Shown: piece after piece, positions 6,812 through 54,440 of the stretch
Layout of the letters: every line of letters begins with the position of its first letter
Numbering within the stretch: position 1 is the first letter of the stretch
Assembly: GCF_017114865.1 (NCBI RefSeq)
Contig: NZ_JADEYH010000018.1
Coordinates: 1 to 64,000 of the forward strand
Direction: 5' to 3'
DNA: 64,000 nucleotides
From: Streptomyces verrucosisporus
Lineage (GTDB): Bacteria > Actinomycetota > Actinomycetes > Streptomycetales > Streptomycetaceae
Notes under the pieces: model-generated
What the model was told of the DNA's origin: nothing
What the model saw: the letters and a program-made list of their open reading frames with translations, nothing else
Databases searched by the model: none
Made by a program: the position numbers and the translations under genes

Positions 6812-8106
6812 CGGCGGACTCCGGGGACGTGCGGGGCGGCGGGCGCGGGGACGGCCGTGGGCAGGGGCGCGGGCGAGAGCGTGGAGGAGGCCGCGGCGGC
6901 GGGGCGCGGGGCGAGGTCGCGCCGGTAGAGGCGGTGTCTGCGGTGGAGGACGCCGCCGAAGGCCTGGGCGTAGCGGTTGGCGTCGCGGTTGTCCTCCAGC
7001 AGCCAGGAGAACTCGCTCTCGGCGCAGCCCAGGCGGAAGGCCGACCGCTGGGCCTCGGCGAGCAGCGCGGCGGTCAGCCCGCGGGCGCGGTGGGCGGCCC
7101 GGACGCCGGTGAGGATCACCCGGGCCCGGTCGACGCGCCGGACGGCCCGGGCCGTGCGCAGCCGTCCCAGGGGCCGCCCCAGAGACCGCCCCGGGGGTGT
7201 GTCGCGGGTGGCGTGCAGCGCCTGGTTGACGTCGGGCAGCCAGAAGGTGAAGGCGACCGGTTCACCGCGCACCTCGGCGAACCACACCAGCTCCGGCCGT
7301 ACCAGCGGGCGCAGCCGGTCCATCGCGTGGGAGAACTCGCGGCCGGTCATGGGGACGGAGGCGTAATTCCCGGACCAGGCGTCGGCGTAGATGTCGCGGA
7401 CGACGGCCAGGTCCGCCTCCAGGCGGCAGGGGTCCAGGTGCCGCAGCCGTACGTCCGGCGCGTCGGCCGCCCAGCGGGCGGCGCGGGCGGCGGGCCCGGG
7501 CGGCTCGCCGCCGGGCGGCACGGGGACCCGCCAGGACAGCAGGTCCTTGGCCTTGGTCAGCCCGCAGGCGGTGTACAGGGCGGGGTAGTAGGCGGGGTTG
7601 TACGGCATCATCACGGTGGGCGGGCCGTCGAAGCCCTCGACGAGGACTCCGCACTCGTCGTGGACGGAGAAGCCCAGCGGGCCGAGCATCGTCTCCAGGC
7701 CGCGTTCGCGCAGCCAGCCGGCGGCGGCGTCGAAGAGGGCGGCGGCGGCTTCGGGGTCGTCGGCGCACTCGAAGAGGCCGAACAGGCCGCCGCGCGCGTC
7801 GTGGAGGGCCTGGTAGCGGGAGTCGACGGCGGCGGCGATCCGCCCGACCGGCTTCCGGCCCCGGCGGGCGAGGAACAGTTCGGCCGTGCCGACCTCGAAG
7901 AACGGGTTGCGCCGCCGGTCGATCAGAGCTCTCTGGTCGCCCTTGGCGGGCGGCAGCCGGTACGGGTCGCCGCGGTGCAGGGTGCGGGGAAGGGCGGCGA
8001 AGGCGGCGGTGTCCGCGCGCCCGCGCACCGGACGGACGGCCAGGGGCGCGGAGGCGACGGGGGAGGAGCTCGCGGTGCTCACGGGGCGCGCGGGGGCGGC
8101 GTTCAC
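6808..8106 (-). CDS. YghO-like GNAT acyltransferase (bCerS-like candidate)
   Basis: A 432-residue protein of the large GNAT-fold family typified by YghO. Recognisable segments are DRRRNPFFEVGTAELFLARR, a glycine-rich LFGLFECADDPEAAAALFDA, the GPLGFSVHDECGVLVEGFD core, VMMPYNPAYYPAL, and a late ARGLTAALLAEAQ segment resembling the acyl-CoA pyrophosphate loop. To my knowledge the Caulobacter ceramide synthase bCerS belongs to this group and acylates the sphingoid amine. The gene starts at a GTG overlapping the stop of the oxoamine synthase gene and ends overlapping the epimerase start, so the three are co-translated. The acyl donor and amine are not deducible from sequence alone. The first 25 residues are Ala/Ser/Pro-rich and poorly conserved. 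Confidence 0.85.
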   Translation of the reverse strand: MNAAPARPVSTASSSPVASAPLAVRPVRGRADTAAFAALPRTLHRGDPYRLPPAKGDQRALIDRRRNPFFEVGTAELFLARRGRKPVGRIAAAVDSRYQALHDARGGLFGLFECADDPEAAAALFDAAAGWLRERGLETMLGPLGFSVHDECGVLVEGFDGPPTVMMPYNPAYYPALYTACGLTKAKDLLSWRVPVPPGGEPPGPAARAARWAADAPDVRLRHLDPCRLEADLAVVRDIYADAWSGNYASVPMTGREFSHAMDRLRPLVRPELVWFAEVRGEPVAFTFWLPDVNQALHATRDTPPGRSLGRPLGRLRTARAVRRVDRARVILTGVRAAHRARGLTAALLAEAQRSAFRLGCAESEFSWLLEDNRDANRYAQAFGGVLHRRHRLYRRDLAPRPAAAASSTLSPAPLPTAVPAPAAPHVPGVRR

Positions 8107-9314
8107 GCCACCACCGCCTCGGTCCGGCCCGGCGCGGGCAGGAGCGGGCCCAGGTCGCGCCGTACCCGGGCGAAGGCGTCCAGGACGCGGGCGATGTGGT
8201 CGTCGGTGTGGATAGCCTGGGGAGTGACCCGGATCAGCGCCCGGTTGCGGGCCACGGCCGGCGCCACCACGGCGTTGGTGAACACCCCGGCGTCCAGCAG
8301 CTCCTGCCACACCCGCAGACACAGCCGCGAGTCGCCCACGTACACCGGCACCACCGGGGTGGTCGAGTCGCCGGTGTCCCAGCCCAGCGACCGCAGCCCG
8401 GCGAGCAGCCGCCGGGCGTGGCCGAACACCCGCTGCCGGCGCCCGGGTTCGGACTCGATGATGTCCAGCGAGGCCAGGGCGGCGGCCGCCGAGGGCGGCG
8501 GCATCGCGGCCGAGAAGAGGACGGAGCGGGCACTGTGGCGCAGGTGCTCGACGACGGGGGCGGGGCCGATCAGCATCCCGCCGACGGAACCGAAGCACTT
8601 CGACAGCGTCCCGGTGACCAGGTCCACCTCGCCGGTCAGCCCGAAGTGCTCGGTCACGCCGCGTCCGCCGGCCCCCAGCAGCCCGATGTCGTGGGCGCCG
8701 TCCACCACCAGCCGGGCGCCGTGGCGCCGGGCCAGCTGCGTGAGGCCCGGCAGCGGGCACAGATCGCCCTCCATGGAGAACATGCCGTCGGTGACGATCA
8801 GACGGCCGCGGCCGGGATCGGAGGTGGCCAGCAGACGGCCCAGGTGGCCGAGGTCGCGGTGGCGGTAGCGGTGGTGGGCGGCGCCGCCGAGCCGGACGGC
8901 GTCCACCAGCGAGGCGTGGTTGGACATGTCGGCGAAGACGGCGTCGCGCTCGTCCAGCAAGGCGGCGAGTGCGAGGTTGGCCTGGAAGCCGGTGGTGGTC
9001 ACCAGTGCCGCCTCGCCGCCGACGAACGCGGCCAGCCGGCCCTCCAACTCCTCGTGGAGCGCGAGCGTGCCGTTGAGCACGCGTGAGCCGGAGCAGGAGA
9101 CGCCGTAACGGCGCAGCGCGCGGGCGGCGGCCTCGGTCACCCGGGGGTCGGCCGACAGTCCCAGATAGTCGTTGCATCCGGCCATGACCACCGTGCGGCC
9201 GTCGATTCCGACCTCCGCGCCCCGGGAGGAGAGAGGGCGGTAGTAGGGCCGGGACGTGCTCTGCGCCGCCAGGCGGTGGAGAGCCGACCGTTCTTTTCCG
9301 AAGACATCCGCCAT
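8103..9314 (-). CDS. Alpha-oxoamine synthase (serine palmitoyltransferase/AONS type)
   Basis: A 403-residue fold-type I PLP enzyme of the AONS/KBL/ALAS/SPT family, which condenses an amino acid with an acyl thioester and releases CO2. The PLP lysine sits in GTLSKCFGSVGG near residue 238. VVDGAHDIGLLG carries the PLP-contacting Asp and His, although the family more often has DDAH or DEAH. VSCSGSRVLNGT is the substrate-pocket glycine/serine segment. The ATG at 9314 follows a purine-rich GGGGAA. It heads the leftward operon with the acyltransferase and epimerase. With a dedicated ACP and ketosynthase converging on it, a long-chain acyl-ACP is the likely partner and serine the likely amino acid (inference). 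A CqsA-like or prodigiosin-type role is possible. Confidence 0.9.
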   Translation of the reverse strand: MADVFGKERSALHRLAAQSTSRPYYRPLSSRGAEVGIDGRTVVMAGCNDYLGLSADPRVTEAAARALRRYGVSCSGSRVLNGTLALHEELEGRLAAFVGGEAALVTTTGFQANLALAALLDERDAVFADMSNHASLVDAVRLGGAAHHRYRHRDLGHLGRLLATSDPGRGRLIVTDGMFSMEGDLCPLPGLTQLARRHGARLVVDGAHDIGLLGAGGRGVTEHFGLTGEVDLVTGTLSKCFGSVGGMLIGPAPVVEHLRHSARSVLFSAAMPPPSAAAALASLDIIESEPGRRQRVFGHARRLLAGLRSLGWDTGDSTTPVVPVYVGDSRLCLRVWQELLDAGVFTNAVVAPAVARNRALIRVTPQAIHTDDHIARVLDAFARVRRDLGPLLPAPGRTEAVVA

Positions 9315-9386
9315 GCTGTTCCCCGAGGAGTTCGCGTCGAGAGGGTTGCGTCGGTTTTTTGACAGGTGTTCGTGTTCTTGTGCGAC

Positions 9387-9416
9387 CGGATGCCGGCTAC
9401 CGGTGTCCGGCATCCG
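9387..9416. promoter_or_regulatory. 30-bp imperfect palindrome in divergent promoter region
   Basis: CGGATGCCGG (9387-9396) and CCGGCATCCG (9407-9416) are perfect inverted arms. The centre is ACCGGT (9399-9404), itself palindromic about the same axis at 9401.5, so 26 of 30 positions are symmetric. It lies 73 bp from the oxoamine synthase start and 290 bp from the acyltransferase start, in the 391-bp divergent spacer. Size and symmetry suit a dimeric TetR- or MarR-type repressor. A 5'-UTR hairpin is the other option. No regulator gene is encoded beside it. Confidence 0.5.
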
Positions 9417-9705
9417 CGATTTCACGTGAAGCGGCTCCGAATTTCCTCCGGTGGCCCCGTGGGCCGGGCTCGGCGCGGCTTCGGGCGGCTTCCGCGGGAG
9501 ACCCCGGACCGCGTGTTCACCGGACCGGTCGCCGCTCTGATCACTGCGCCGTCCGGGGGCGGACGTGCGTCGGTCCTTTTCCCGCCGGGCGTTCCGCCAG
9601 AATACTGACACAGGATCAGAAAAGGCGCGGACAGGTGACTCGTGTGTTTTCCGGGTGGGCCGTCGAAGGTTTGCGCGAGTTCTCGACGAGTGAGCGAGAA
9701 GGCGT

Positions 9706-14661: not shown

Positions 14662-15680
14662 CACCCCTGCAGCTGACCATCGGCGCCCTGATGATCCTGG
14701 TGAACGCCTTCTTCGTCGGCGCCGAGTTCGCCCTGATCTCGGTGCGCCGCAGCCAGATCGAGCCGCACGCCGAGAAGGGCGTCAGGCGCGCCCGCACCAC
14801 CCTGTGGGGCCTGGAGCACCTGTCGGCGATGATGGCCACCGCCCAGCTGGGCATCACCGCGTCCTCCCTGGTGCTGGGCGCGGTCGCCGAACCGGCGATC
14901 GCGCACCTGCTGGAGCCGCCCTTCGAGGCCGTCGGCGTCCCCGGCGCCCTGGTCCACCCGGTCGCCTTCGTCATCGCGCTGGCCCTGGCGACCTATCTGC
15001 ACATGCTCATCGGCGAGATGGTGCCCAAGAACATCGCCCTGGCCGCCCCCGTGCCCACCGCACTGCTGCTCGGGCCGCCGCTGGTCGCCCTCACCCGGGC
15101 CCTGCGGCCGGTGATCTTCGGCATCAACGCCTTCGCCAACGCCCTGCTGCGCCTGCTCAGGGTCGAGCCCAAGGACGAGGTCGCATCGATCTTCACCGAT
15201 GCCGAGCTCACCCGCATGGCGCGGGAGGCCAGCGAGGCCGGACTGATCGAACCGGGCGGTCACGAGCGGCTGCGCGAGGCCCTGGAGCTGGGCAGCCGCC
15301 CGGCGTCCGAGGTGCTGGTGCCCCTGGCCGAGATGCACACCGTCGGCCACACCGTCACCCCCGACCAGCTGGAGCGCACCGCCACCACGGTCGGCTTCTC
15401 CCGGCTGCCGGTCACCGGCCCCGGCGGTACGGTGCTGGGATATCTGCACGTCAAGGACGCCATCGGCGTCGTGCACCGCGACCGGCCCTTCCCGCCCGAG
15501 GCGCTGCGCGCCGTCGTACGCGTCGGGTCCGGCACTCCGCTGGACGACGTCCTCACCACCATGCGCGCCGGCGGCACCCACCTGGCCGCCGTCACCGGCG
15601 ACCGCGGCGAGCTGCTGGGCTTCGTCACCATGGAGGACGTCCTGGAGAAGCTGGTCGGCCCGGCCCCGGCCGCGCACTGA
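14658..15680 (+). CDS. CNNM/CBS membrane protein, copy 2 (no CorC_HlyC domain)
   Basis: A 340-residue partner of the preceding gene, overlapping it by ATGA and preceded by GGGAGG. It has the same DUF21 membrane domain (FFVGAEFALISVRRSQIEPH, TAQLGITASSLVLG, IGEMVPKNIALAAP), then a linker helix and a CBS pair (RPASEVLVPLAEMHT; LLGFVTMEDVLEKLVG at the end), but stops before any CorC_HlyC domain. Tandem long/short CNNM genes suggest a heteromeric complex or specialised subunits (inference). Cation specificity is unknown. Confidence 0.9.
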   Translation: MTPLQLTIGALMILVNAFFVGAEFALISVRRSQIEPHAEKGVRRARTTLWGLEHLSAMMATAQLGITASSLVLGAVAEPAIAHLLEPPFEAVGVPGALVHPVAFVIALALATYLHMLIGEMVPKNIALAAPVPTALLLGPPLVALTRALRPVIFGINAFANALLRLLRVEPKDEVASIFTDAELTRMAREASEAGLIEPGGHERLREALELGSRPASEVLVPLAEMHTVGHTVTPDQLERTATTVGFSRLPVTGPGGTVLGYLHVKDAIGVVHRDRPFPPEALRAVVRVGSGTPLDDVLTTMRAGGTHLAAVTGDRGELLGFVTMEDVLEKLVGPAPAAH

Positions 15681-15773
15681 GCGTCCGCCCGGGACGTCCC
15701 CGGGCGGACCGCTCCAGGGAGCCGGCCCGTCCGGCTGCGGCGGCCGGGCGACGGTCGCCCCGGAAGCCGGGAC

Positions 15774-15805
15774 GGTGGGGGAGCGGTGCCTACCGCTCCC
15801 CCACC
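15774..15805. terminator. Perfect 14-bp stem-loop, bidirectional terminator
   Basis: GGTGGGGGAGCGGT (15774-15787) pairs perfectly with ACCGCTCCCCCACC (15792-15805) around the four-base loop GCCT. It sits between the convergent CNNM operon and the following leftward gene, and overlaps that gene's TAG stop codon (15790-15792), so it can serve both directions. Confidence 0.8.
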
Positions 15806-16239
15806 CCCTCCGGGTCCTTGTCCTCTCCTTCGTTCAGGTCGTTCCACTTGGCCACGTAGACCAGCGCATGGTCGTGACCGGGCCAGACCGCGGGGCAGGG
15901 CGGGCCGATGTGGACCTCGGTCGTGATGTCGGACTGGTCTTCGGGACTCCCCATCAGGAGCATCTTCAGTTCGGAGACGATCTCCTGCAGGTTCTGCGCG
16001 GCCTCGGGTGTCTCCCGGGGAACCGCCGCGTGGATGACGACCTCGCCGGGGCGCGGTTCCACCGACAGCCCCAGGACGTCCCCGCCGACGCGGCCCAGTG
16101 CCGCCTGGCAGGTCCGCAGGAGGAGTTGGTCGCGGCGGAGCAGTGCCTGTACCTCGTCGGGCGGCAGACTGGGCGCGTAGTACAGCTCAGCGGGGTGGCG
16201 CATGCGCGTACGGTAGGGGCTCGCCGCGTGCTCCGCCAC
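15790..16239 (-). CDS. Hypothetical protein
   Basis: A 149-residue soluble acidic protein with no family that I recognise. It reads as a compact globular domain: a helical segment (LPPDEVQALLRRDQLLLRTC), alternating strands (GLSVEPRPGEVVIHAAVP), a helix (QNLQEIVSELKMLLM) and a final stretch ALVYVAKWNDL with a charged tail. The GTG at 16239 is the longest start; an in-frame ATG at 16203 (MRHPAELYY) is an equally good candidate, and neither has a strong ribosome-binding site. Its stop codon lies within the strong hairpin shared with the CNNM operon. It lies 56 bp from the inositol phosphatase gene stop, but no functional link is evident. Confidence 0.5.
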   Translation of the reverse strand: MAEHAASPYRTRMRHPAELYYAPSLPPDEVQALLRRDQLLLRTCQAALGRVGGDVLGLSVEPRPGEVVIHAAVPRETPEAAQNLQEIVSELKMLLMGSPEDQSDITTEVHIGPPCPAVWPGHDHALVYVAKWNDLNEGEDKDPEGVGER

Positions 16240-16295
16240 GGGAACGCACGCATCCGTATCGCACCGTCACCGAGCCCGCCCCGGCCCCCGGCCGG

Positions 16296-17117
16296 CTACC
16301 GGAGCCGGGCCCGGCTCAGGGCGGCCAGCTCCCGGGCCAGCGGCCCGTTCGCCGCCACCAGGACCGGGGCGCCGAAGACGTACGGCCGCCCGTCGCCGTC
16401 CAGCACCGTCCATCCACGGCGGCGCAGCAGCGCCATCCCGGCGGCCACGTCCCACGGCTTGGCGCCGACGCACACGCAGGCGTCCAGCCAGCCCTCGGCC
16501 ACGCCGATCAGGTCCAGGCTCATGCAGCCCTGCATCCGCACCCGGTAGGCCCCGTCCAGCAGAGCGGCCAGCAGCCTCCCGGACGGGGAGCCGACGCCCC
16601 CGGCGCCCGTGACGCCGATCACCGCCCGCGACACCTCCCGGGCGCCTTCCCCCGCCGCGTCCCCGCCCTCGGCCGCGTCCCCGCCCGCACTGCCCGCGCC
16701 CGTGCTCCAGCGCCGGTCCAGGGCGGGGGCGTGGAGCACGCCCAGCGCGGGCTCACCGCCGTCCACCAGCCCCAGGGAGACGGCGTACAGCGGGGCGCCG
16801 CGGGTGAAGTTCATCGTGCCGTCGATCGGATCCAGCAGCCAGCAGCGGGACGGCACCGAATCCCCGTCCTCCCGGTCGGTCTCCTCGCCGACGACCGGGA
16901 TGCCGGGCGTGCGCTCCCGCAGCACACGCGTGATGCGCCGCTCCACCTCGGCGTCGGCGTCCGTGACCTCCTCGCCCGACGCCTTGAACCTCCGCTTCGA
17001 CCACTCGTCCCCCGCCTCCGTGAGCCATCCGACCCCGGCGTCGACGGCCGCCTCGGCGGCGTCGAGCAGACGGGCGAGCGGCTCGCGGTCGGATCCCACA
17101 TCAGGTTCGGTGCGCAT
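16296..17117 (-). CDS. Inositol monophosphatase family protein
   Basis: A 273-residue Mg2+-dependent sugar/inositol phosphatase. The three metal-binding motifs are intact: VVGEETD near 75, LLDPIDGTMNF near 95, and KPWDVAAGMALL near 225. Length is normal. A Gly/Ala/Glu-rich loop (roughly 140-165) is longer than usual and likely disordered. The ATG at 17117 gives the typical N-terminus, a helix ending DAGVGWLTEAG. Possible substrates include inositol-1-phosphate, histidinol phosphate and fructose-1,6-bisphosphate; no neighbouring pathway genes decide between them. Confidence 0.9.
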   Translation of the reverse strand: MRTEPDVGSDREPLARLLDAAEAAVDAGVGWLTEAGDEWSKRRFKASGEEVTDADAEVERRITRVLRERTPGIPVVGEETDREDGDSVPSRCWLLDPIDGTMNFTRGAPLYAVSLGLVDGGEPALGVLHAPALDRRWSTGAGSAGGDAAEGGDAAGEGAREVSRAVIGVTGAGGVGSPSGRLLAALLDGAYRVRMQGCMSLDLIGVAEGWLDACVCVGAKPWDVAAGMALLRRRGWTVLDGDGRPYVFGAPVLVAANGPLARELAALSRARLR

Positions 17118-17415
17118 TCCACCAGTGTTTCCGAGGACCCGTCTCCCATCCGCGCCGGGCGGGCCGTACGCCGGGGAGGGGCTCGGGCATGCGGCCGTAC
17201 ACGCGCATGACGACCTCGCGGCAACTTGGTTGATGCAGTCCGTAGTCGTTGTAGCTGTGAACTCAGTTTCCTTGTTCTGTGGTTCTTCGTGGAGCGCACA
17301 CCCGTGGCTGTCGGGCGAACCGGCCCGGCGGATGCACCGGGGTCCGGCCCCGGCCGAGCGCCGTGCCTCTGAGGTCCGGAGGCAGTGGCACAGACAGGAA
17401 GAGGGGGGTCCTCCG
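17118..17415. other. 298-bp divergent spacer
   Basis: Between the leftward phosphatase and the rightward DUF4352-like gene no coding frame is convincing. The patch 17226-17275 is less GC-rich than its surroundings and contains TTGATG (17230-17235) and TAGCTG (17252-17257) 16 bases apart, a weak vegetative-promoter resemblance for the rightward gene. Confidence 0.3.
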
Positions 17416-18012
17416 ATGGCCCAGCACAATCCCGGCCCGCAGTACCAGCAGTGGGGTCCCGGTCAACCGCAGCAGCCGGTGCCGCCCGTGCCGCGGAAGA
17501 AGTCCGGAGCGGGGAAGATCATCGGCTTCGGCTGCCTGGGCGTCATCGCCCTCTTCGTCGTGATCGGCGTCATCGGCGCGGCTCTCGGCGCGGGCGGCGA
17601 CGAGAGCGCGGAGAAGCCCGCCGCGTCGGCGGCGCCGAAGGAGCCCGGCGGCGGGGAGAAGAAGGACAAGGGTGAGGAGGCTCCCGCGCCGATCCGGGTC
17701 ACGGCGGAGGCCGCCGACTTCCGGCCCACCATCCTCGCCGACGGCGGGGAGTACACCTCCGTGCTGGTCGCGGTCGTCAACAACGGTGCGGAGAAGGTCG
17801 GCGTCAATCCGCTGTACTTCGAGGTCACGGCCGCGGACGGCTCCAAGTACGACGTCGAACTCGCCGCGGACGAGCGCCAGATCGACACGGTCGAACTGGC
17901 CGAGGGTGAGAAGGCGACCGGCACCGTCACCGTCAAGGGGAAGATCGAGCCGAGGACGGTCACCTTCACCGACGGTCTCTTCGGTGACTCGATCAGGGCG
18001 GATGTCGGATAG
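17416..18012 (+). CDS. Membrane-anchored DUF4352-like extracellular protein
   Basis: A 198-residue protein. A Gln/Pro-rich cytoplasmic N-terminus (NPGPQYQQWGPGQPQQP) and a short basic patch precede a single membrane segment (about residues 36-58, IIGFGCLGVIALFVVIGVIG). An Ala/Lys/Glu-rich spacer leads into an extracellular beta domain (about 92-198: YTSVLVAVVNNGAEKVGVNP, EGEKATGTVTVKG) resembling DUF4352 or TRF2-like immunoglobulin-type folds of actinobacterial surface proteins. The ATG at 17416 has GAGGGGGG eight bases upstream. Function unknown; such proteins often assist surface or lipoprotein complexes. Confidence 0.75.
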   Translation: MAQHNPGPQYQQWGPGQPQQPVPPVPRKKSGAGKIIGFGCLGVIALFVVIGVIGAALGAGGDESAEKPAASAAPKEPGGGEKKDKGEEAPAPIRVTAEAADFRPTILADGGEYTSVLVAVVNNGAEKVGVNPLYFEVTAADGSKYDVELAADERQIDTVELAEGEKATGTVTVKGKIEPRTVTFTDGLFGDSIRADVG

Positions 18013-18116
18013 CGGCCGGACGGGGCCACGGGAACCCGCCCTCACCCCAACGCCCTTCCGGGCGCGGCGGCTTGTACGGTGACCGGAGACGAGGTCGGCC
18101 GGACGGGGGGCGCGGA

Positions 18117-18425
18117 GTGGGGCGGCGGGCGAGGGCGTACGCGGTGACGGCGGCGCTCGTGGTGGGCGGCGCCGGACACGCGGCGACGGAGATCCTCGAC
18201 CACAGCACCCGGTACGTTCCCCCGCCCGAGCCGGCCCCCACCGCCGCCGACGACCCCCACGGCGGGAGCGAGCGGTGGAGGGCGCCGTGCGAGGGGAAGG
18301 CTGTGCCCGGCCCGGACCCGAACTCGGGGCTCGGCCCGGACTCGGGGCCCGGACCGGACTCGGACATGCGGCCGGACCCGGCCCGGACCCGAGCGGCGAC
18401 GGACAGGTGGTGCGGGAACCGGTAG
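18117..18425 (+). CDS. Possible small secreted hypothetical protein
   Basis: A GTG at 18117 preceded by a G-rich tract opens a 102-codon frame. The start, GRRARAYAVTAALVVGGAGH, resembles a short signal peptide (Arg-rich n-region, hydrophobic core); the rest is Pro/Asp/Gly-rich and low complexity (GPDPNSGLGPDSGPGPDSD). No family recognised. The low-complexity tail and lack of a strong start make this doubtful; it may be non-coding. Confidence 0.3.
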   Translation: MGRRARAYAVTAALVVGGAGHAATEILDHSTRYVPPPEPAPTAADDPHGGSERWRAPCEGKAVPGPDPNSGLGPDSGPGPDSDMRPDPARTRAATDRWCGNR

Positions 18426-18618
18426 TGGTGGACACGCTGGTGTGGTGTCCCGGGGAGCCGCTCGACCGGGGGAGTGGTGCTGACCGGCAGCCCCGCGCGG
18501 TGCCCCGGTGCCGCCGTGGTGGACAGCGCGTACAGCGCCGCCCGCGGGCGCGTACACCGCCTTCCTGGACGTGTGTGATCGCTTGTCCCTCCCGGCGGCG
18601 GGAGCCACGGTGGAGGGT

Positions 18619-46566: not shown

Positions 46567-47856
46567 TCAGGGGCGCGGGGCGGAGCCGGCCAGATGCCGG
46601 GCGATCTCCCGCAGGGCCGACAGCAGCTCCCCCGGCTCGCGGGAGAGGTCCAGGCCGTGCCGGTACAGCCGCACCCCCAGCCCGTCCGGACCGGCCGCCG
46701 TCCCGCGCACCTCGTGGAAGCGCGCGGGCAGAGCCCCGCCCGCGTACACCAGATGCGCCTCGCGCAGGCCGAGGACGGTGGCGTAGGCCAGCGCCTGGTA
46801 CAGGTCGGCGCCTGGCGGCCCGCCGCTCTCCCCGGTGACCTTGTACTTGGCGTCGGCGACGGCGAGCGGGGTGCGGCCGTCGCCGCCGCGCACGACGAGG
46901 TCGGGGCGTATCCGCACCAGGCCGGCGGTGTCGAGGTGGTGGGGGTCCTGGAGGCGCGCGGTCAGGCCGTGCTCCTTCAGCGCCTCGCGCAGGGCGGCGG
47001 TCACGAAGTCCTCGAACAGCCGGTTCATGTCCAGCAGGAAGCCGTCCAGGGCGAGCGGTTCGGCCCCGGCGGGCCGGTGCTCGGGCGAGGAGCCGCGCAG
47101 CAGGGCCTCGGCCAGCCGCAGCGCCGGCCGGTAGCGGGAGTTCAGGCGCGAGGGCCGCCATCGCGGCGGCTCCTGACCCCGTGTCAGCGGCGCGGCGCCC
47201 GCCAGGCGCAGACGCTGGTGGGCCAGGCGCCGCCGCACGGGCCCGGGCACCCCCGGCAGCCGCAGCAGCCGTTCGGCGGCGGCGCGCAGTAAGCGGTTCT
47301 CGGCGATGTCCTCGGTGTACGCGTCGTAGGCGATCTCCACGGGCGGGGTGCGGCCGAAGTGCCGCCGGATCTGCTCGGCCTCGCGTATCCGCCCGCGTAC
47401 CACCAGCGCGGACTCCTCCACCTCCCGGTAGCCCTGGAGGACCCCGCGCCGCAGCGCCGCGTCCACCTGCCGCTCCACGGCGTGCGCGAGCGCGGGGACG
47501 ACGTCGTCGTACGCGCCGGTGTCGACGGTGCCCTCCCGGCCGTCGCGCCAGGCGCGCTCCGGGTCGAGGCTGAAGCCGAGCAGGAAGAACAGCCGGCGCA
47601 CCGGCGTCTTGGGGACGATCCGCAGAACCGGTCCGCCCCCGGGGACGCGTACGGCGCCGACCCGGCTGCCCGCCCGCAGCAGCCAGTGCCCGTCCCGGCC
47701 GGGGTCGGGGGCCGCGCCGTGCAGGATGCCGGAGGCGGCCAGCGCACGCCCCGCCGACGCGTCCAGGCAGACGGAGACGGCGGGCCCGTACTCGCGCAGC
47801 ACCACCTCGCGCGCGGGCACGGGGGCGGCCACCGGTGTGGGCACGGACCCGGTCAC
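46567..47856 (-). CDS. mcrC: McrC, nuclease subunit of type IV McrBC restriction
   Basis: A 429-residue McrC. The N-terminal half (about 15-180) is the McrB-stimulating region (REYGPAVSVCLD; GVLQGYREVEESALVVRGRI). The C-terminal PD-(D/E)XK nuclease has LFEDFVTAALREAL, then VRIRPDLVVRGGD near 315 and LAVADAKYK near 335, so the catalytic D-(x)n-DAK pattern is intact. It should cut DNA carrying modified cytosines once recruited by the GTPase McrB. The GTG at 47856 overlaps the McrB stop. Such systems are a well-known barrier in Streptomyces against methylated DNA. Confidence 0.92.
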   Translation of the reverse strand: MTGSVPTPVAAPVPAREVVLREYGPAVSVCLDASAGRALAASGILHGAAPDPGRDGHWLLRAGSRVGAVRVPGGGPVLRIVPKTPVRRLFFLLGFSLDPERAWRDGREGTVDTGAYDDVVPALAHAVERQVDAALRRGVLQGYREVEESALVVRGRIREAEQIRRHFGRTPPVEIAYDAYTEDIAENRLLRAAAERLLRLPGVPGPVRRRLAHQRLRLAGAAPLTRGQEPPRWRPSRLNSRYRPALRLAEALLRGSSPEHRPAGAEPLALDGFLLDMNRLFEDFVTAALREALKEHGLTARLQDPHHLDTAGLVRIRPDLVVRGGDGRTPLAVADAKYKVTGESGGPPGADLYQALAYATVLGLREAHLVYAGGALPARFHEVRGTAAGPDGLGVRLYRHGLDLSREPGELLSALREIARHLAGSAPRP

Positions 47857-49691
47857 GGGTGCTGCCCGCGCAGCGCGCCGAGGCCGTAGCGGGCGGCGAC
47901 GTCGAGACCGTCGCCGTAGTGGTGCTCCTCCAGCAGCGGCAGGATCTTCGTGCGCCAGGTCCGCTCCAGTCCGCCGTCGCGGTACACCCCCGGCTTCATC
48001 AGGTACGAGGGCCCGATGGCGAAGTCGGGGTCGTCGATCAGGGAGTTGAGGGCGTCCAGCAGGCGGGCGGGCTCCGCATCCCGGCCCTCGCGCTCCAGCC
48101 AGCGCGCGAGCAGCCCGGCGGTCGGTTCGGTGCGCGGGGACAGCTCCACGAACGCGAAGCGGCGCCGCATCGCCGTGTCAACCAGCGCGATGGAGCGGTC
48201 GGCGGTGTTCATCGTGCCGATGACGAAGAGGTTGGGCGGCAGCGCGAAGTCGTCGCCGGAGTAGGTCAGCCGCACGGACCGGTCCCGGTACTCCAGGAGG
48301 AAGTACAGCTCGCCGAAGACCTTCGCCAGATTGGCGCGGTTGATCTCGTCGACGATCAGGAAGTGCGGGACGTGCCGGTTGCCCTCGCGGGAGGCGAGGT
48401 CGGCCAGTTCCCGCAGCGGGCCCGCCGTCAGCCGGAAGGCCACCTCCCGTGTCTCGGGGTCCGCCGCGGGACGGAAGCCCTCGAAGAAGTCCTCGTAGGC
48501 GTAGGAGGGGTGGAACTGCACGGTCTTTACCTGTTCCGGACCGCCCCCGAAGTGCTCGGCCAGCCTCATCGCCAGATACGTCTTGCCCGTGCCCGGCGGG
48601 CCGTAGAACACCAACTGCTTCTCGTCCAGAAGCAGTTCGCGTACCTCATCCAGCCAGGCCCGGTCGTGGACGAGGAGGTCGGCGGCCAGCTCCGCGGTGA
48701 CCTGCGGCAGCGTCAGTTCCCGCTGCGCCGGCCGCTCGCCGGTGTCCCCGGCCGCCGACGGCTCCGCGCCACTCGCCCGCCCGGCGGGCCCGTCCGGTGC
48801 GTCCGGCGCGTCCAGCCCGTCCAGCGCCTCCAGGACGCCGGTCAGATCGACCACGTCGTGCTGCACCGACAGCTTCTGCTGCACTTCCCCCGGCAGCTCC
48901 TCGTACGGGTGGCCGCCGGGCCGCCAGACGACGGTGCGGCGCAGGTTGGACAGCCCGCCTGGCGAGGCGGTCTGCACGGCCTCCCCGGTGATCCGCCCGG
49001 TGTACAGCCGGTCGTCGTCGAAGGTGGCGACGGTGTCGCCGACGCGCATCTGCGTCAGGAAGGCGTGCAACTCGTCGACCAGGCCCTGCTTCTGGTGGTA
49101 CGAGGCCGCCCCCTCGTACCCCTCCTCGACGAAGCGGCGCAGCGCGCTCCTGGTCGGGTCGCTCTCCTCCAGCGGCGGCAGGTGCGCGCCGGAGAGCGAG
49201 ACGATCCCCTCCGCCAGCCACAGCCTCCGCACCAGGTTGTGCCCCGAGACGTTGGCGCCGCGCACCAGCCACGCCTTGCGCGGGGTGCGCCAGGCGGTGG
49301 ACAGGTAGTCGGCCAGCGGATGGCCCTCGTCGGTGCGCCAGGACTCCGGACCGGAGGCGTCGTAGCCGTACACCAGCGTGGCCGCGGCCGAGGAGGAGTT
49401 GCACTCCACGTCCCGGGTCACCACCCGGCGCGGCGGCCCCTGCGGCCGGCCGGGATCGGCGGGTGCGTCGACGAGCCCGCCGCCCGCGCGCAGTTCGGCG
49501 CGCAGACGGCGTGCGTGGTCGCCGATCCTGGAGGACGTCTCGACGGCCACCTCCGAGCCCTTGAGCAGGAGGAACCTGTTCGTGCCGTTGTTGCCGAACT
49601 CGGTGAGCAGGCAGCCGCGCGCCTCACCGCCGCCCCCGGGGAGCCTGATGCGGAACTCGGGGGCGCCGGGGAGGCGTTCGGGCTGCGGCAT
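47853..49691 (-). CDS. mcrB: McrB, AAA+ GTPase of type IV McrBC restriction
   Basis: A 612-residue protein. The C-terminal AAA+ module (about 340-600) has Walker A YGPPGTGKTYLAMRLA near 363, Walker B with the McrB consensus LIVDEINRANLAKVFGEL near 446, and the nucleotide-specificity motif GTMNTADRSIALVDTAMRRR. The N-terminal 300 residues are the modified-DNA sensing part; they start EFRIRLPGG and contain VVTRDVECNSSSAAATLVYG and a later beta-rich module (VGDTVATFDDDRLYTG). It is not the DUF3578 domain of E. coli McrB as far as I can see, so specificity may differ. GGAGGG is seven bases before the ATG at 49691. McrC follows with GTGA overlap. Confidence 0.92.
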   Translation of the reverse strand: MPQPERLPGAPEFRIRLPGGGGEARGCLLTEFGNNGTNRFLLLKGSEVAVETSSRIGDHARRLRAELRAGGGLVDAPADPGRPQGPPRRVVTRDVECNSSSAAATLVYGYDASGPESWRTDEGHPLADYLSTAWRTPRKAWLVRGANVSGHNLVRRLWLAEGIVSLSGAHLPPLEESDPTRSALRRFVEEGYEGAASYHQKQGLVDELHAFLTQMRVGDTVATFDDDRLYTGRITGEAVQTASPGGLSNLRRTVVWRPGGHPYEELPGEVQQKLSVQHDVVDLTGVLEALDGLDAPDAPDGPAGRASGAEPSAAGDTGERPAQRELTLPQVTAELAADLLVHDRAWLDEVRELLLDEKQLVFYGPPGTGKTYLAMRLAEHFGGGPEQVKTVQFHPSYAYEDFFEGFRPAADPETREVAFRLTAGPLRELADLASREGNRHVPHFLIVDEINRANLAKVFGELYFLLEYRDRSVRLTYSGDDFALPPNLFVIGTMNTADRSIALVDTAMRRRFAFVELSPRTEPTAGLLARWLEREGRDAEPARLLDALNSLIDDPDFAIGPSYLMKPGVYRDGGLERTWRTKILPLLEEHHYGDGLDVAARYGLGALRGQHP

Positions 49692-49792
49692 GGGAGGACC
49701 CTCCGGACATGGCGGTACCTGAGCGAACGCCCCACACCTTAACTTGTTGACACAGTCAAGCTGTTCCGCCGTGTCCGGCGGCGGCGCCGGCC

Positions 49793-49939
49793 GCCGCGCC
49801 GCGCCTCATGCCCCGGCGGGCGGGGTGGTGAGGACCGCGCGGACGGTCTTGCCGCCGGGCGGGTGGGGGACGGTCTCCCAGTGGTCGGTGAGGGCGGCGA
49901 CGAGGGCGAGGCCGTGCCCGCCGGTGCGGAGCGGCCCGG
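49793..49939 (-). repeat. Direct repeat copy A: displaced 3' end of an anti-sigma-type gene
   Basis: This segment matches 51096-51242 at a constant offset of 1,303 bp: 127 of 130 bases across 49810-49939, and two more mismatches plus a short shift in the next 17. Read leftward it encodes the last about 44 residues of an RsbW-like ATPase (TGGHGLALVAALTDHWETV, ending TTPPAGA) with a TGA at 49806-49808. It has no start or N-terminus: a detached gene end, matching a site-duplication product. Confidence 0.9.
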
Positions 49940-49988
49940 AGTCCCGTATCCGTCGTACCGCTCTCCCACCACCGGCGATACTGGAAGC

Positions 49989-50354
49989 ATGAACTCGATG
50001 ACCACCACACCACACGCCGAGGTGCTGCGGGACCGCCACCGCAACCGGCTGCCGCAGCGTCTGCGGGAACTGACCGGCCCTGTCGATGGGACTGTCGAGC
50101 TGCCGCTCCACATCGCCTGGTCCGGGCGTACGAGCTACAGCCTGGACCGTCCGAAGTCCCGTATGACGCTCTACCGGACCGTCCTCGCCGAGGGCCGGCG
50201 CGAGGACCTGGAGAGGTTCCTCCATCACCGGCTGCTCGCCGAGCAGTGGCCTGTCCTGCGCCGCCTGGTCAGCCCCTACATCCGCGAGGTCTGGGAGGCG
50301 GCCTTCCCCGAGCTGCTGCCCCGCACCGCCCCGGCCGCCGCGAACGCCGCGTGA
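49989..50354 (+). CDS. Putative antitoxin/partner protein of the AbiEii-like gene
   Basis: A 121-residue protein, mostly helical: TPHAEVLRDRHRNRLPQRLR, then a short beta segment (GTVELPLHIAWSGRTSYSLD), and GRREDLERFLHHRLLAEQWP plus YIREVWEAAFPEL. I recall proteins of this type upstream of AbiEii-family nucleotidyltransferase genes in streptomycetes, but they are not the classical AbiEi winged helix. Its stop overlaps the GTG of the toxin-like gene, as expected for a cognate pair. GATACT at 49977-49982, seven bases from the start codon, suggests a leaderless transcript. The antitoxin role is inference from position. Confidence 0.75.
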   Translation: MNSMTTTPHAEVLRDRHRNRLPQRLRELTGPVDGTVELPLHIAWSGRTSYSLDRPKSRMTLYRTVLAEGRREDLERFLHHRLLAEQWPVLRRLVSPYIREVWEAAFPELLPRTAPAAANAA

Positions 50355-51010
50355 GGCTCACCCCGCTCCACCGGCGTCTCCTCGCCGACATCATCGACCT
50401 CGGCTCCCCCTATCCCCTGGTCCTCACCGGCGGATACGCGGTGCAGGCCCACGGTCTGGTCGAACGCTTCAGCCGCGACCTCGATGTCGCCACCGAGAAC
50501 CCCGCTCCGATGGACGAGATCGTCGCCTCGCTCACCGAGGGCCTCACCGCGCGCGGATGGCGGACCACGCACGTACAGACCGACCCGCTCAGCGGGCGGT
50601 TCCTCGTCACCGACTCCCGGACCGGTGAGGAGTGCGAGGTCGATGTCCTCAAAGAGCCGTTCTGGGCGCCGCCCGCCCAGACCCCTTACGGCCCCGTCCT
50701 CTCTCTCGACGATGTGATCGGCACCAAGGTGCGTGCCCTCGCCGACCGTGGCGCTGTCCGAGACCTCATCGACGTCCGGGCCGCCTCCCGCCACCGGTCC
50801 GCCGCCGACCTCGAGAACCTCGGCCGCCGCTGCGCTCATGAGGAGTTCAGCCTCGAAGACCTCCGTGACCGGCTCATCGGCGCGAACTGGTATGAGGACG
50901 AGGACTACACCGCGTACGGGCTCGCCCTCGGGGAGATCGAAGAACTCAAGAAGTGGGCCGTGCGGTGGGCGGAGGACCTGGAAGCGCGGATTCACGCAGG
51001 GAGCGCCTGA
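50351..51010 (+). CDS. AbiEii/AbiGii-family nucleotidyltransferase toxin
   Basis: A 219-residue protein with the DNA-polymerase-beta-type core LTGGYAVQAHGLVERFSRDL, in which the GG, the H and the R-S-D-D pattern of AbiEii are intact, followed by EECEVDVLKEPFW and the DDVIGTKVRALADRGAVRD segment (K-A-L-x-D-R, RD-x-x-D). AbiEii proteins nucleotidylate cellular targets and cause abortive phage infection in type IV toxin-antitoxin systems. Length is typical of short members. Starting at a GTG that overlaps the partner gene, it forms a two-gene cassette of about 1 kb, flanked by 147-bp direct repeats. Confidence 0.85.
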   Translation: MRLTPLHRRLLADIIDLGSPYPLVLTGGYAVQAHGLVERFSRDLDVATENPAPMDEIVASLTEGLTARGWRTTHVQTDPLSGRFLVTDSRTGEECEVDVLKEPFWAPPAQTPYGPVLSLDDVIGTKVRALADRGAVRDLIDVRAASRHRSAADLENLGRRCAHEEFSLEDLRDRLIGANWYEDEDYTAYGLALGEIEELKKWAVRWAEDLEARIHAGSA

Positions 51011-51095
51011 CGGGGCCCGGCCGCCGCGTCGGCCTGAGAGGCCGCACGATGCGGCCGGAGCGCGCCGAGCATGCCGAGAACCTGTGCCGGCCGCC

Positions 51096-51242
51096 GCCGC
51101 GCCGCGCCTTACGCCCCGGCGGGCGGGGTGGTGAGGACCGCGCGGACGGTCTTGCCGCCGGGCGGGTGGGGGACGGTCTCCCAGTGGTCGGCGAGGGCGG
51201 TGACGAGGGTGAGGCCGTGCCCGCCGGTGCGGAGCGGCCCGG
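51096..51242 (-). repeat. Direct repeat copy B: 3' end of the intact anti-sigma-type gene
   Basis: This is the other copy of the 147-bp repeat (see 49793-49939). Here it forms the natural 3' end of the intact ATPase gene, including the TAA stop (51109-51111). The two copies bracket the AbiE-type cassette in direct orientation. Confidence 0.9.
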
Positions 51243-51576
51243 CCTCGGCGTCCGGCCCGTCATCCGGCGCGGGGACGCGCGGCTCGCACTCCCCGCGGGC
51301 GTCGGTCACCTCGACGGTCAGGCGGCCGGCCGTCCGGTCGTAGGTGAGCGCCAGCCGGAAGCAGCGGCCGGGCACGTGCCCGTGGAGGACGGCGTTGGCG
51401 GCCAGTTCCGCGACGACGAGTTCGGCGCGCTCGGCGAGGTCCTGCGGCACCTCCCAGGAGAGCATCTCGGTCACGGTCAGGAGCCGGGCCAGCCGGGCCC
51501 CGCGTCGCGTGGACGACAGCAGTTGTGTGAAGGCGGCGAGGGCGGGTCCGGCCTGCGGTGGTGTCGCTCGGTTCAT
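51109..51576 (-). CDS. RsbW-like ATP-binding regulator (anti-sigma factor type)
   Basis: A 155-residue GHKL ATPase. N box ELVVAELAANAVLHGH, G1 region VEVTDARGECEPR, and G2 GGHGLTLVTALADHWETV are in order, giving the stand-alone HATPase_c_2 domain used by streptomycetes as Ser/Thr-type anti-sigma kinases. The N-terminal 20 residues are poorly conserved. The C-terminus after GKTVRAVL is the segment duplicated at 49.8 kb. It is divergent from a dienelactone hydrolase-like gene by position but read leftward like it. Partner anti-sigma antagonists are not adjacent; the PP2C protein at 0.3-2.5 kb belongs to the opposing class. Confidence 0.88.
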   Translation of the reverse strand: MNRATPPQAGPALAAFTQLLSSTRRGARLARLLTVTEMLSWEVPQDLAERAELVVAELAANAVLHGHVPGRCFRLALTYDRTAGRLTVEVTDARGECEPRVPAPDDGPDAEAGPLRTGGHGLTLVTALADHWETVPHPPGGKTVRAVLTTPPAGA

Positions 51577-51863
51577 GCGGGCCAGGGTGGGGGTCGCGCG
51601 GGGGCGCGAACGAGTGCGCGGCCGTGTACGCGGGGGTCGTGTACGAGCGCTCCGGGTGGACGGTACGGAAGCGTTCCGTCACCCTGGGCGGTGACCGCGA
51701 GCGCCTTCGGGGCCGAGGACGAAGAGACGAGAACCCGGCCGAGGCCGTGATGCGGGCCGCGCCGGCGACCCGGTACGCCACGGTCCGGCCGTTCCCGTCG
51801 CTGCCGGGCGAGTCGAAGGCGCTGGACGCGGTGGGCAGGAGCGGGTATCAGGAGCCGACCGGA

Positions 51864-52589: not shown

Positions 52590-53256
52590 ACGACTGGACG
52601 GTAATGACCGTCGAGCCCGCTCGGGGTGGTGTTCACCGACGGCGGAGCGGTCTGTCCCGACTGCGTAACCCGGATGTGTCTCCCCCTGCCGTCGAACGGC
52701 AGCCGGTTCGCGCGTCCGGTGAACCCGTGCAGTACGGGGGGCCGTAGCGGCTCGAACGCAGTCGGACCCGATGGTGACCGATGACAGGGGTCGATGACGG
52801 GCAGGACCGTTCCTCCGTGCGGCCGTCGCCGGCCTTCTGTCCGAGCACACCGCCATCGAGGAGGCCGCTCCGACGCCGGGCGACCGTGACCGGGCACTTC
52901 GCCGACCTCAAGGGTGAACGCTTCGGCCGCCCCGTCCCGGAGTGGTGGCCGACCGGCCGTCGAGTGGCCGTTGGCCGTGAGATCCGGCCGCGCAATCCGA
53001 GATCCCGCGCCAGGGATACGCCTCGTCGTCGGCGGGGGAGCGGTCCGGGATGCGGTGTTGTTCGGGGCGTGCGGGGCGAGGTGGGGGCGCGCGGGGGGCG
53101 TGAACGAGCGCGGAATCGCGTACGCGGGGTGAGCGTACGAGCACGTGGGGTGGACGGTGCGGGATGTGTTCGGTCACGCTGAATGGAGGTCGCTGACACT
53201 TTCGGTAGTCGTCGCGGCCTGGGCACGCAGCACGGAGCAAGCGGAGAGGGCGGCGG
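52590..53256. other. 667-bp spacer with possible gene debris
   Basis: No complete gene could be supported. Short rightward pieces such as AVAGLLSEHTAIEEAAPTPG and, in another frame, VTGHFADLKGERFGRPVPEW look more ordered than random but match no family I can name. They may be the eroded remains of a gene. The region separates the leftward hydrolase from the rightward DUF5753 regulator and must contain both promoters. Confidence 0.35.
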
Positions 53257-54258
53257 ATGGACAACGTCGACAGGGCCGGGGTCGGGGTCGAGGTCGGGTT
53301 CGAAGTCGAGGGCGAAGTCGGAGCCGGGGACGAGGCCGACGACGAGGCCGGAGCTGGGACCGGGGCCGGGACCGGCGACGGGGGCGAGACCGCGCGGGAG
53401 GCCGCGGGCGACGAGGAGCGCTCGGGCCCGGAACGGGAGTGGGACCGGGAGCCGCATCCTTCGGACAGCATGCGCACCTTCGGTGCGGTCGTGCAGGCGT
53501 TGCGCGAGCACAACGGCCTCAGCCGCGCCGAACTCGGCACCTGGGTGCGCTACTCCAAGCACACCGTGGCGTCGGTGGAGCTGGGTCGCCGGATGCCGGA
53601 CCGGGCGTTCGTGGAACGCGCGGAACTCGCCCTCGGCAACACCGGCGCCCTGCGCAAGGCCGCCCGCCACCTGACGCGCGGCGAGGTGGGACTCGCCGCG
53701 TGGTTCCGCCAGTGGGCACGGCTGGAACGGAAGGCGGTGAGCCTGTCCACCTACGAGTGCCGGCTGGTGCCGGGCTTGTTGCAGTCCGAGGCGTACGCGC
53801 GGGCTGTGTTCGACAACAGCATCCCGCTGCTGATCGACGAGCAGGCGGAAGCTCAGGTCACCGCGCGAATGGACCGACAGCGGATGATGAGGGAGCGGCC
53901 GACCGTGCCGTTCAGCTTCATCGTTGAGGAGGCGGTCCTCCGGCGCGGGCTGGGCGGACCGCAGGTGCAGGCGAGCATGCTGGACCACGTGCTCGAACTC
54001 ACCGCACCGCGCAACGTGACGTTCCAGGTCGTGCCGCTGTGGCTGGAGTTCCACGGCTGCTTGGACGGATCTCTGCAGATCCTGGAGACGCCGGAGGGGC
54101 GGTGGCTCGGGTACTCCGAAGGGCAGCAGAACGGACGGCTGATCTCGGACCGAAAAGAGATGCGACTGCTCTGTCAGCGCTATGAAACACTGCGCTCGCA
54201 GGCCCTCAACCCCAAGGAATCCCGGGACCTGCTGGAGCGACTGCGAGGAGAGCTGTGA
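53257..54258 (+). CDS. XRE-type helix-turn-helix regulator with DUF5753
   Basis: A 333-residue regulator of the class paired with DUF397 proteins in actinomycetes. An HTH (about 68-125) reads RTFGAVVQALREHNGLSRAE, then LGTWVRYSKHTVASVELGRR, followed by the DUF5753 domain (about 150-325; STYECRLVPGLLQSEAYARA; DHVLELTAPRNVTFQVVPLW). The first 65 residues are an unusual acidic Gly/Glu/Asp/Ala run with short Val-Glu repeats, absent from most family members. The alternative start inside it, MRTFGAVV near residue 72, would give a normal-sized protein, but the GAGAGG upstream favours 53257. The stop overlaps the DUF397 gene start. These pairs influence development and antibiotic production; the target is unknown. 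Confidence 0.9.
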   Translation: MDNVDRAGVGVEVGFEVEGEVGAGDEADDEAGAGTGAGTGDGGETAREAAGDEERSGPEREWDREPHPSDSMRTFGAVVQALREHNGLSRAELGTWVRYSKHTVASVELGRRMPDRAFVERAELALGNTGALRKAARHLTRGEVGLAAWFRQWARLERKAVSLSTYECRLVPGLLQSEAYARAVFDNSIPLLIDEQAEAQVTARMDRQRMMRERPTVPFSFIVEEAVLRRGLGGPQVQASMLDHVLELTAPRNVTFQVVPLWLEFHGCLDGSLQILETPEGRWLGYSEGQQNGRLISDRKEMRLLCQRYETLRSQALNPKESRDLLERLRGEL

Positions 54259-54440
54259 AGACGACGGAACTCGACTGGTTCAAGTCCAGCTACAGCGGTA
54301 CCCAGGGCGACAGCTGTGTGGAGGTCGCGATCGCCGAGCGGGCCGTCTACGTGCGGGACTCCAAGGACCTGGCCCTCCCCGCCTTCAAGATCGGCCGTGA
54401 GGGCTGGACCCGGTTCGTGCGCTTCGCGTCGGAGCGCTGA
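54255..54440 (+). CDS. DUF397 family small protein
   Basis: A 61-residue DUF397 protein: LDWFKSSYSGTQGDSCVEVA, then VYVRDSKDLALPAFKI and a WTRFVRFA end, all canonical. Starts at a GTG overlapping the stop of the DUF5753 regulator, so the pair is co-translated. DUF397 proteins are thought to act with their XRE partner, perhaps as an antitoxin-like or modulatory subunit (BldB-like), without an established biochemical role. Confidence 0.92.
   Translation: MKTTELDWFKSSYSGTQGDSCVEVAIAERAVYVRDSKDLALPAFKIGREGWTRFVRFASER

Follow-up and report, generated by a model that had tools for sequence, protein, structure and literature searches.

In Streptomyces, defence-type genes have most likely been added time and again behind one regulatory gene, with severed pieces of its tail left in place, and the repeat R1 described here is most likely such a leftover. 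The window, i.e. the whole stretch of 64,000 nucleotides analysed (positions 1 to 64,000 of contig NZ_JADEYH010000018.1 of Streptomyces verrucosisporus), carries an AbiE-type gene pair between the end of an intact RsbW/AbaA-type gene (R2) and a detached copy of that end (R1). R1 is probably a 3' stump that homologous recombination displaced, much as happens in Rhs and T6SS arrays, rather than a trace of att-type integration. The evidence lies in the layout of the window, in before and after alleles found in other genomes, in a stump/AbiE junction common to different species and in the homogenisation of R1 with R2.

Organization of the RsbW locus

The locus comprises the following features (positions in the window).

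46567-47856, minus strand: McrC-like gene, left part of the island (PF10117 McrBC, 156.7 bits)
47853-49691, minus strand: McrB-like AAA ATPase gene, current left neighbour of R1 (AAA_5, 66 bits)
49785-49939, minus strand: R1, 3' stump of the RsbW/AbaA gene, a 155-nt direct repeat whose junction with AbiE recurs in other genomes
49940-49988, plus strand: DNA 5' of the AbiE-type pair, carrying GATACT at 49977-49982; its left end is the stump junction
49989-50354, plus strand: partner gene of 121 aa, putative antitoxin, which precedes the toxin gene in related loci
50351-51010, plus strand: predicted AbiEii-type nucleotidyltransferase toxin gene (PF08843, 63.2 bits for a cut-off of 22.5)
51088-51242, minus strand: R2, right copy of the 155-nt repeat: the intact RsbW gene's 3' end and the 21 nt that follow
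51109-51576, minus strand: intact RsbW/AbaA-type HATPase gene, the anchor (PF13581, HATPase_c_2, 57 bits)
51534-51686, no strand: promoter-side repeat copy 1, covering the RsbW start and the DNA upstream of it, 75.6% identical to 53030-53181 in direct orientation
53030-53181, no strand: promoter-side repeat copy 2, upstream of XRE, 75.6% direct repeat with 51534-51686
53257-54258, plus strand: XRE/DUF5753 regulator of WhiJ type (PF19054, 149 bits; HTH_31, 42 bits)
54255-54440, plus strand: DUF397 protein of BldB type (PF04149, 63 bits)

R1 and R2 form a direct repeat of 155 nt with 148 identical positions (95%). A first-pass annotation of this DNA had reported a duplicated gene end at a constant offset of 1,303 bp with 127 of 130 core positions identical, and the recount is exact: 127/130 for the core 49810-49939 and 142/147 for the subframe 49793-49939 against its counterpart at +1303. 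It had also described one copy as the end of an intact gene and the other as a detached fragment with its own stop, as is the case here. R2 terminates the HATPase_c_2 gene, and R1 consists of 131 coding nt followed by its own stop TGA at 49806-49808 and 21 nt of downstream DNA. A search of the genome itself returned the two copies with E values of 4.8e-76 and 1.0e-66 and a far weaker next match (E 1.0e-5 over 32 bases), so that chance is excluded as the source of the repeat. R1 most likely has no function of its own today.

The enclosed genes had been called an antitoxin-toxin pair of AbiE type. The predicted toxin gene does carry the AbiEii domain; the partner, which matches no Pfam family, is a putative antitoxin. 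No match to this 121-aa protein was obtained in Pfam at E 1 or in PADLOC, its best NCBIfam match has E 0.13, and its structure model (mean pLDDT 57.4) is too poor for use. A sequence-based search for the nearest solved structure of the AbiEii-type protein gave none at E 1.

The left side of the locus is occupied by McrB and McrC, a region with 93% identity to Streptomyces pini DNA, and to the right of RsbW lie a DLH-type hydrolase, the XRE/DUF5753 regulator and the DUF397 protein. The window's RsbW, XRE/DUF5753 and DUF397 genes thus have the composition by which the AbaA-WhiJ-BldB paralogue clusters of Streptomyces are defined, with HATPase, XRE and DUF397 genes side by side (PMC10294661); the parts of that account available to us mention neither defence cargo nor AbaA fragments.

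The surroundings of RsbW were compared in a hub set of 45 distinct loci (885,626 bp) chosen by their likeness to the window's RsbW and not for the presence of a second copy. Seven of the 52 initial locus identifiers (L072, L079, L083, L084, L086, L088 and L094) were dropped because none contained an RsbW match of sufficient length in a single frame; in six of the seven, RsbW is in pieces. Among the 45 hub stretches, which are of unequal length, an XRE match is present in 39, McrB or a piece of it in 18, a methyltransferase on the right in 17, the Hsp70 protein in 11, at least one of the two AbiE genes in nine and a gene for an 876-aa protein, or a piece of it, in eight. PADLOC recognizes McrB (as REase_II), AbiEii, an Mrr-type gene (PDC-S02) and the methyltransferase (DrmMI/type IIG). 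McrC, the Hsp70 protein, a 402-aa gene and the 876-aa gene gave no PADLOC match, nor did the AbiE partner, so that their designation as defence genes is a guess based on position. The RsbW-XRE-DUF397 cluster is best explained as the fixed edge of a variable, defence-rich island.

Stumps and intact copies of RsbW in other genomes

In two genomes (G177 and G111), an intact RsbW stands tail to tail with a homologue of the 876-aa gene of a third (G151). In G099, the end of such a homologue and the intergenic DNA are followed by the last 29 nt of RsbW; this segment is 93.7% identical over 127 bp to G177, where RsbW is intact, and 72% identical to G111. Behind the 29-nt stump come the AbiE 5' flank and partner gene, with a DNA match that begins at window base 49940, then other genes and an intact RsbW. 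The comparison of G099 with G177 implies that the inner side received cargo together with a complete RsbW and that the old RsbW was cut to a stump. The G099 stump ends a few bases at most from the AbiE junction of the window, and probably represents that junction after a small deletion between two CCG motifs. AbiEii is absent from G099, cut after its start, and its space (8726-9520 of locus L073) is filled by a small reverse gene, which we take to be a PIN-type toxin, and a small partner; G099 therefore shows the layout of the window incompletely. The cargo at this spot thus keeps changing, AbiEii having been replaced by other genes.

A second series involves AbiEii as the displaced neighbour. 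In G196 a decayed AbiEii gene (63% match, probably frameshifted, with its partner gene cut) is tail to tail with an intact RsbW. In G085 and G177 the end of AbiEii is followed by a stump and then by the cargo of an Hsp70 operon, with one common junction. The AbiEii-RsbW neighbourhood seen in G196 has therefore itself been displaced elsewhere. A second stump in G085 lies between the 402-aa gene and the Mrr-type gene; the same spacer is found in G177 with most of the stump gone and its tail kept, as read by eye. The first-pass annotation had proposed looking for other cargo between identical repeats, and the Hsp70 operon and Mrr-type gene of G085 are other cargo that lies between RsbW ends. As a side observation, a fragment of the 402-aa gene, a neighbour of the Hsp70 operon, recurs upstream of AbiE in G085 (locus L040, 7808-7994 and 14127-14314), and a comparable piece is present in G177, which would suit the displacement of an older operon prior to the arrival of AbiE.

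Further loci are less complete. AbiEii adjoins a stump in G382, G334 has two stumps 13 kb apart with no intact RsbW within the stretches examined, and the stump of G151 is short and weak (E 2.8e-5). McrB, the window's left neighbour of R1, adjoins an intact RsbW in the distant species G284, as judged by gene order; this arrangement was found in no close relative. A stump beside cargo that elsewhere adjoins the intact anchor is hence seen at the DNA level in G099 and in G085/G177 (for AbiEii), and for the McrB of the window by gene order alone. S. pini has a single R with another gene beside it and no AbiE, and was rejected as a clean empty site because about 4.3 kb of other DNA separates the McrB promoter from RsbW. 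In S. barkulensis the partner gene alone adjoins RsbW and there is no R1. Either a loss of R1 or a former AbiE without R1 would fit the two species.

Repeats were also counted in the hub loci as a whole. Of 35 repeat pairs whose copies are separated by 400 bp or more, 16 involve the RsbW zone, although this zone makes up 3.3% of the sequence (binomial 1.3e-10, a generous value since pairs are treated as independent). All 16 are direct; the other 19 comprise 18 direct pairs and one inverted. The partners of 3'-end repeats are on the 3' side of an intact RsbW in five of five cases, all direct. These five pairs occur in four of the 45 loci, which means that most hub loci are without a stump at this threshold. 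The duplicated part of RsbW varies by locus, from 3' ends of several lengths to the whole gene (G279) and 5' parts (G142 and S. barkulensis).

In S. barkulensis (locus L099, reverse-complement 15583-18450), a 955-aa ORF starts with approximately the first 73 residues of RsbW. The DNA of this part is 96.5-97.7% identical, over 342-373 bp, to that of the intact gene some 8 kb away. The remainder of the ORF is unrelated to RsbW and presumably an Rhs-looking protein.

Age of the junction and likeness of R1 to R2

A genus survey covered 295 genomes, one per species, drawn from a larger group. Among the matches listed, the whole R1-AbiE-R2 layout was found besides the window in one genome, that of S. 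radiopugnans (G214); a search of 61 genomes of relatives added no further copy among the matches listed. S. radiopugnans has the same R1/AbiE junction as the window, even though the two stumps differ by 11%. Its R1 has a pyridine nucleotide-disulphide oxidoreductase gene as left neighbour in place of McrB, so that the left flank has changed at the outer edge of R1. This neighbour was not found adjoining an intact RsbW in the hub loci.

The same stump/AbiE junction occurs once more in G356, in a segment of about 1.0 kb that comprises the stump and AbiE, with AbiEii cut and no R2. This segment is at a different site, within an insert of about 3.8 kb that is missing there in the window's genome and in S. 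radiopugnans; for S. pini there is no alignment to the right of the insert site. In the insert, stump and AbiE accompany another AbaA-type/XRE/DUF397 cluster. The G356 assembly is 96% complete and 7% contaminated, and the flanking genes on the same contig match other genomes. A junction common to the window, S. radiopugnans and G356, together with a G099 stump that ends at nearly the same AbiE base, indicates that the event is old.

The high identity of R1 and R2 is accounted for by homogenisation of the copies. In 133 gap-free columns of R1 and R2 from the window and S. radiopugnans, eight sites are concerted, R1 being equal to R2 within each genome and different between genomes, as opposed to one site at which the two R1 copies agree and the two R2 copies agree; nine columns differ in a single copy and 115 are identical. 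At the lone site that keeps the identity of R1, the G356 stump carries the same base. The natural reading of the concerted sites is gene conversion between R1 and R2, and repeated excision and re-entry would yield the same pattern. The stump is 97.7% identical to the local intact RsbW in the window and 95.3% in S. radiopugnans. G356, where no intact RsbW stands beside the stump, serves as a control for why an old copy may look young: its stump is 78.9% and 79.5% identical to the other two, its AbiE 90.1% and 94.0%.

AbiE genes are found well beyond this arrangement. At 14 AbiE loci with 85-86% identity, the homology to the window starts at 49937-49943 in 13 cases and at 49903 in one. The RsbW model has no match within the stretch examined at 13 of the 14, and the upstream DNA of the eight in the right orientation is not RsbW-like by eye. 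Partial matches to the query, at 60-80% identity, occur in 63 plasmid records, and the 20 matches listed concern the AbiE part only. A plasmid or phage origin of the whole unit was rejected, since no plasmid covers 80% of it at one place and no phage match was obtained. The AbiE-like DNA on Streptomyces plasmids and the 13 loci with no RsbW match indicate that AbiE itself spreads without RsbW ends.

Origin of R1 and related systems

Displacement by homologous recombination is the explanation that we favour. New cargo linked to RsbW sequence would recombine at a resident RsbW gene, which would yield a complete RsbW followed by the new cargo, the old RsbW being cut to its 3' end and left next to the gene that it adjoined before. 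For the window, this cargo would be the AbiE-type pair and the stump R1, which presumably arose as in G099, G085 and G177. Two kinds of donor proposed for comparable arrays may apply here: a circle that carries stump and cargo (Rhs), or a linear piece homologous at one end and joined illegitimately at the other (Vibrio T6SS). The exchange was probably of the RecA type. The first-pass annotation was thus right to see recombination at the gene's 3' end, with incoming DNA that supplies a complete gene and an old end left behind, as the explanation of the layout. It went on to suggest that the unit may be a minimal mobile cassette with att sites that docks at the 3' end of such genes, a view that the age and interspecies distribution of the junction, the homogenisation and the AbiE loci with no RsbW match in the stretch examined do not sustain.

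In its explicit form, this att reading would make R1 and R2 the attL and attR of a minimal non-autonomous element, a recombinase acting in trans to insert a 1.3-kb AbiE circle into RsbW-type 3' ends. Direct repeats of a gene's 3' end do enclose cargo here, stump and AbiE recur in G356 at another site beside another AbaA-type cluster, and AICEs of Streptomyces are described, in the parts of the source available, as having direct repeats of 2-94 nt, decayed ones being at times without int (PMC9513070). The absence of an integrase from the unit, already pointed out in the earlier annotation, extends to the 125.6-kb contig (C16), which has no match to PF00589 or PF00239, the two families searched; the 13 PF00589 and three PF00239 matches of the genome, which might act in trans, are all on other contigs. 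The duplicated RsbW parts share no core, the G356 match starts inside the stump and ends inside AbiEii instead of at the repeat edges, and the window and S. radiopugnans have the same junction although their stumps have diverged. The variable extent of the duplicated parts, combined with the lack of PF00589 and PF00239 on the contig, favours homologous recombination over site-specific integration. Att-type integration was rejected on these recombinase searches and on the comparison of the duplicated parts, and is judged quite improbable.

R1 might instead descend from a tandem duplication of the whole RsbW gene, after which AbiE was inserted and the distal copy decayed until its 3' end was left, a course of events that we regard as unlikely. 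Tandem complete copies had been named as an observation that would speak against the cassette, and they do exist: G279 (locus L058) has two complete RsbW genes, at 3055-3468 and 7429-7842, 4.4 kb apart with other genes between them and 86.8% identical over 577 bp. That locus has no AbiE match and is the only one of the 45 with two full copies. The 5' fragments of RsbW in G142 and S. barkulensis would also suit a history of whole-gene duplication, but in G099, G085 and G177 the stump stands beside the old neighbour of the intact gene with new cargo inside, so that no tandem stage is needed, and one abrupt stump/AbiE junction is common to three genomes. It is very improbable that selection has preserved R1, say in a regulatory or antisense role before the AbiE promoter. 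Selection would account for the near-identity of R1 to R2 in two species, but not for a G356 stump that has fallen to about 79% identity beside an AbiE at 90-94%, for the 29-nt length of the G099 stump, or for the 13 of 14 AbiE loci that have no RsbW match.

Displacement by homologous recombination has precedents. C-terminal displacement arrays of Rhs genes were described by Jackson et al. 2009 (PMC2935791), who proposed homologous recombination with circular intermediates. As far as the parts of that paper available to us go, those arrays resemble the present loci in having an intact anchor gene, behind which lie cut pieces of it that vary in length, are almost identical to the local intact copy and each adjoin older cargo. 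Rhs loci exchange the C-terminal tip of the protein itself; here the C-termini of RsbW are conserved between hub loci, and separate neighbour genes (AbiE, the Hsp70 operon, the Mrr-type gene) are exchanged. In the T6SS immunity gene arrays of Vibrio cholerae, sequential displacement is attributed to homology-facilitated illegitimate recombination with no specific integration site, cargo is added at the anchor and older cargo, in one step the 3' end of a displaced gene, is shifted downstream (PMC5361080, available parts). The present loci differ in their anchor, the anti-sigma-type ATPase gene belonging to a WhiJ-BldB cluster, and in their cargo of restriction or toxin-antitoxin type. The exchanged part of the Rhs and T6SS arrays is a variable C-terminal tip or its immunity gene. 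The RsbW loci, where the cargo consists of separate genes and the RsbW C-termini are conserved, work like such arrays and are not classed as members. What is seen looks like the displacement of a gene end known from Rhs and T6SS arrays, both the anchor and the type of cargo being new; stumps of an RsbW/AbaA gene with defence cargo were not described in the open-licence literature searched.

The tandem genomic islands at ssrA in Dehalococcoides (PMC3146451) and the AICEs (PMC9513070) likewise have cargo bounded by direct repeats of a gene's 3' end. In the available parts of these sources, the elements have a serine or tyrosine recombinase and repeats of 20 bp and 2-94 nt, respectively; the repeat of the window measures 155 nt, on a contig with no match to PF00589 or PF00239. 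Direct repeats of a 3' end are easily mistaken for att sites, and the relatives compared here indicate another origin through their before and after alleles. The anti-sigma-type gene is thereby marked as a place where a Streptomyces defence-type island grows, and the order of acquisition may be readable from the stumps. A broader proposal, possible but doubtful, would make AbaA-WhiJ-BldB clusters general accretion points for Streptomyces defence genes. Short units of cargo plus AbaA 3' end, such as a 1,303-bp AbiE-R circle, would move between AbaA genes by RecA alone. The stumps and old cargo left behind would form an ordered record, and collapse of the repeats would be prevented by the toxin-antitoxin pair.

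The other end of RsbW is duplicated as well. Eight of the 16 RsbW-zone pairs in the hub loci are promoter-side repeats before XRE, which may be kept as regulatory sites. The cargo between these repeats differs among the window (the hydrolase), S. radiopugnans and S. pini, and in compact loci RsbW and XRE have one promoter-side region in common.
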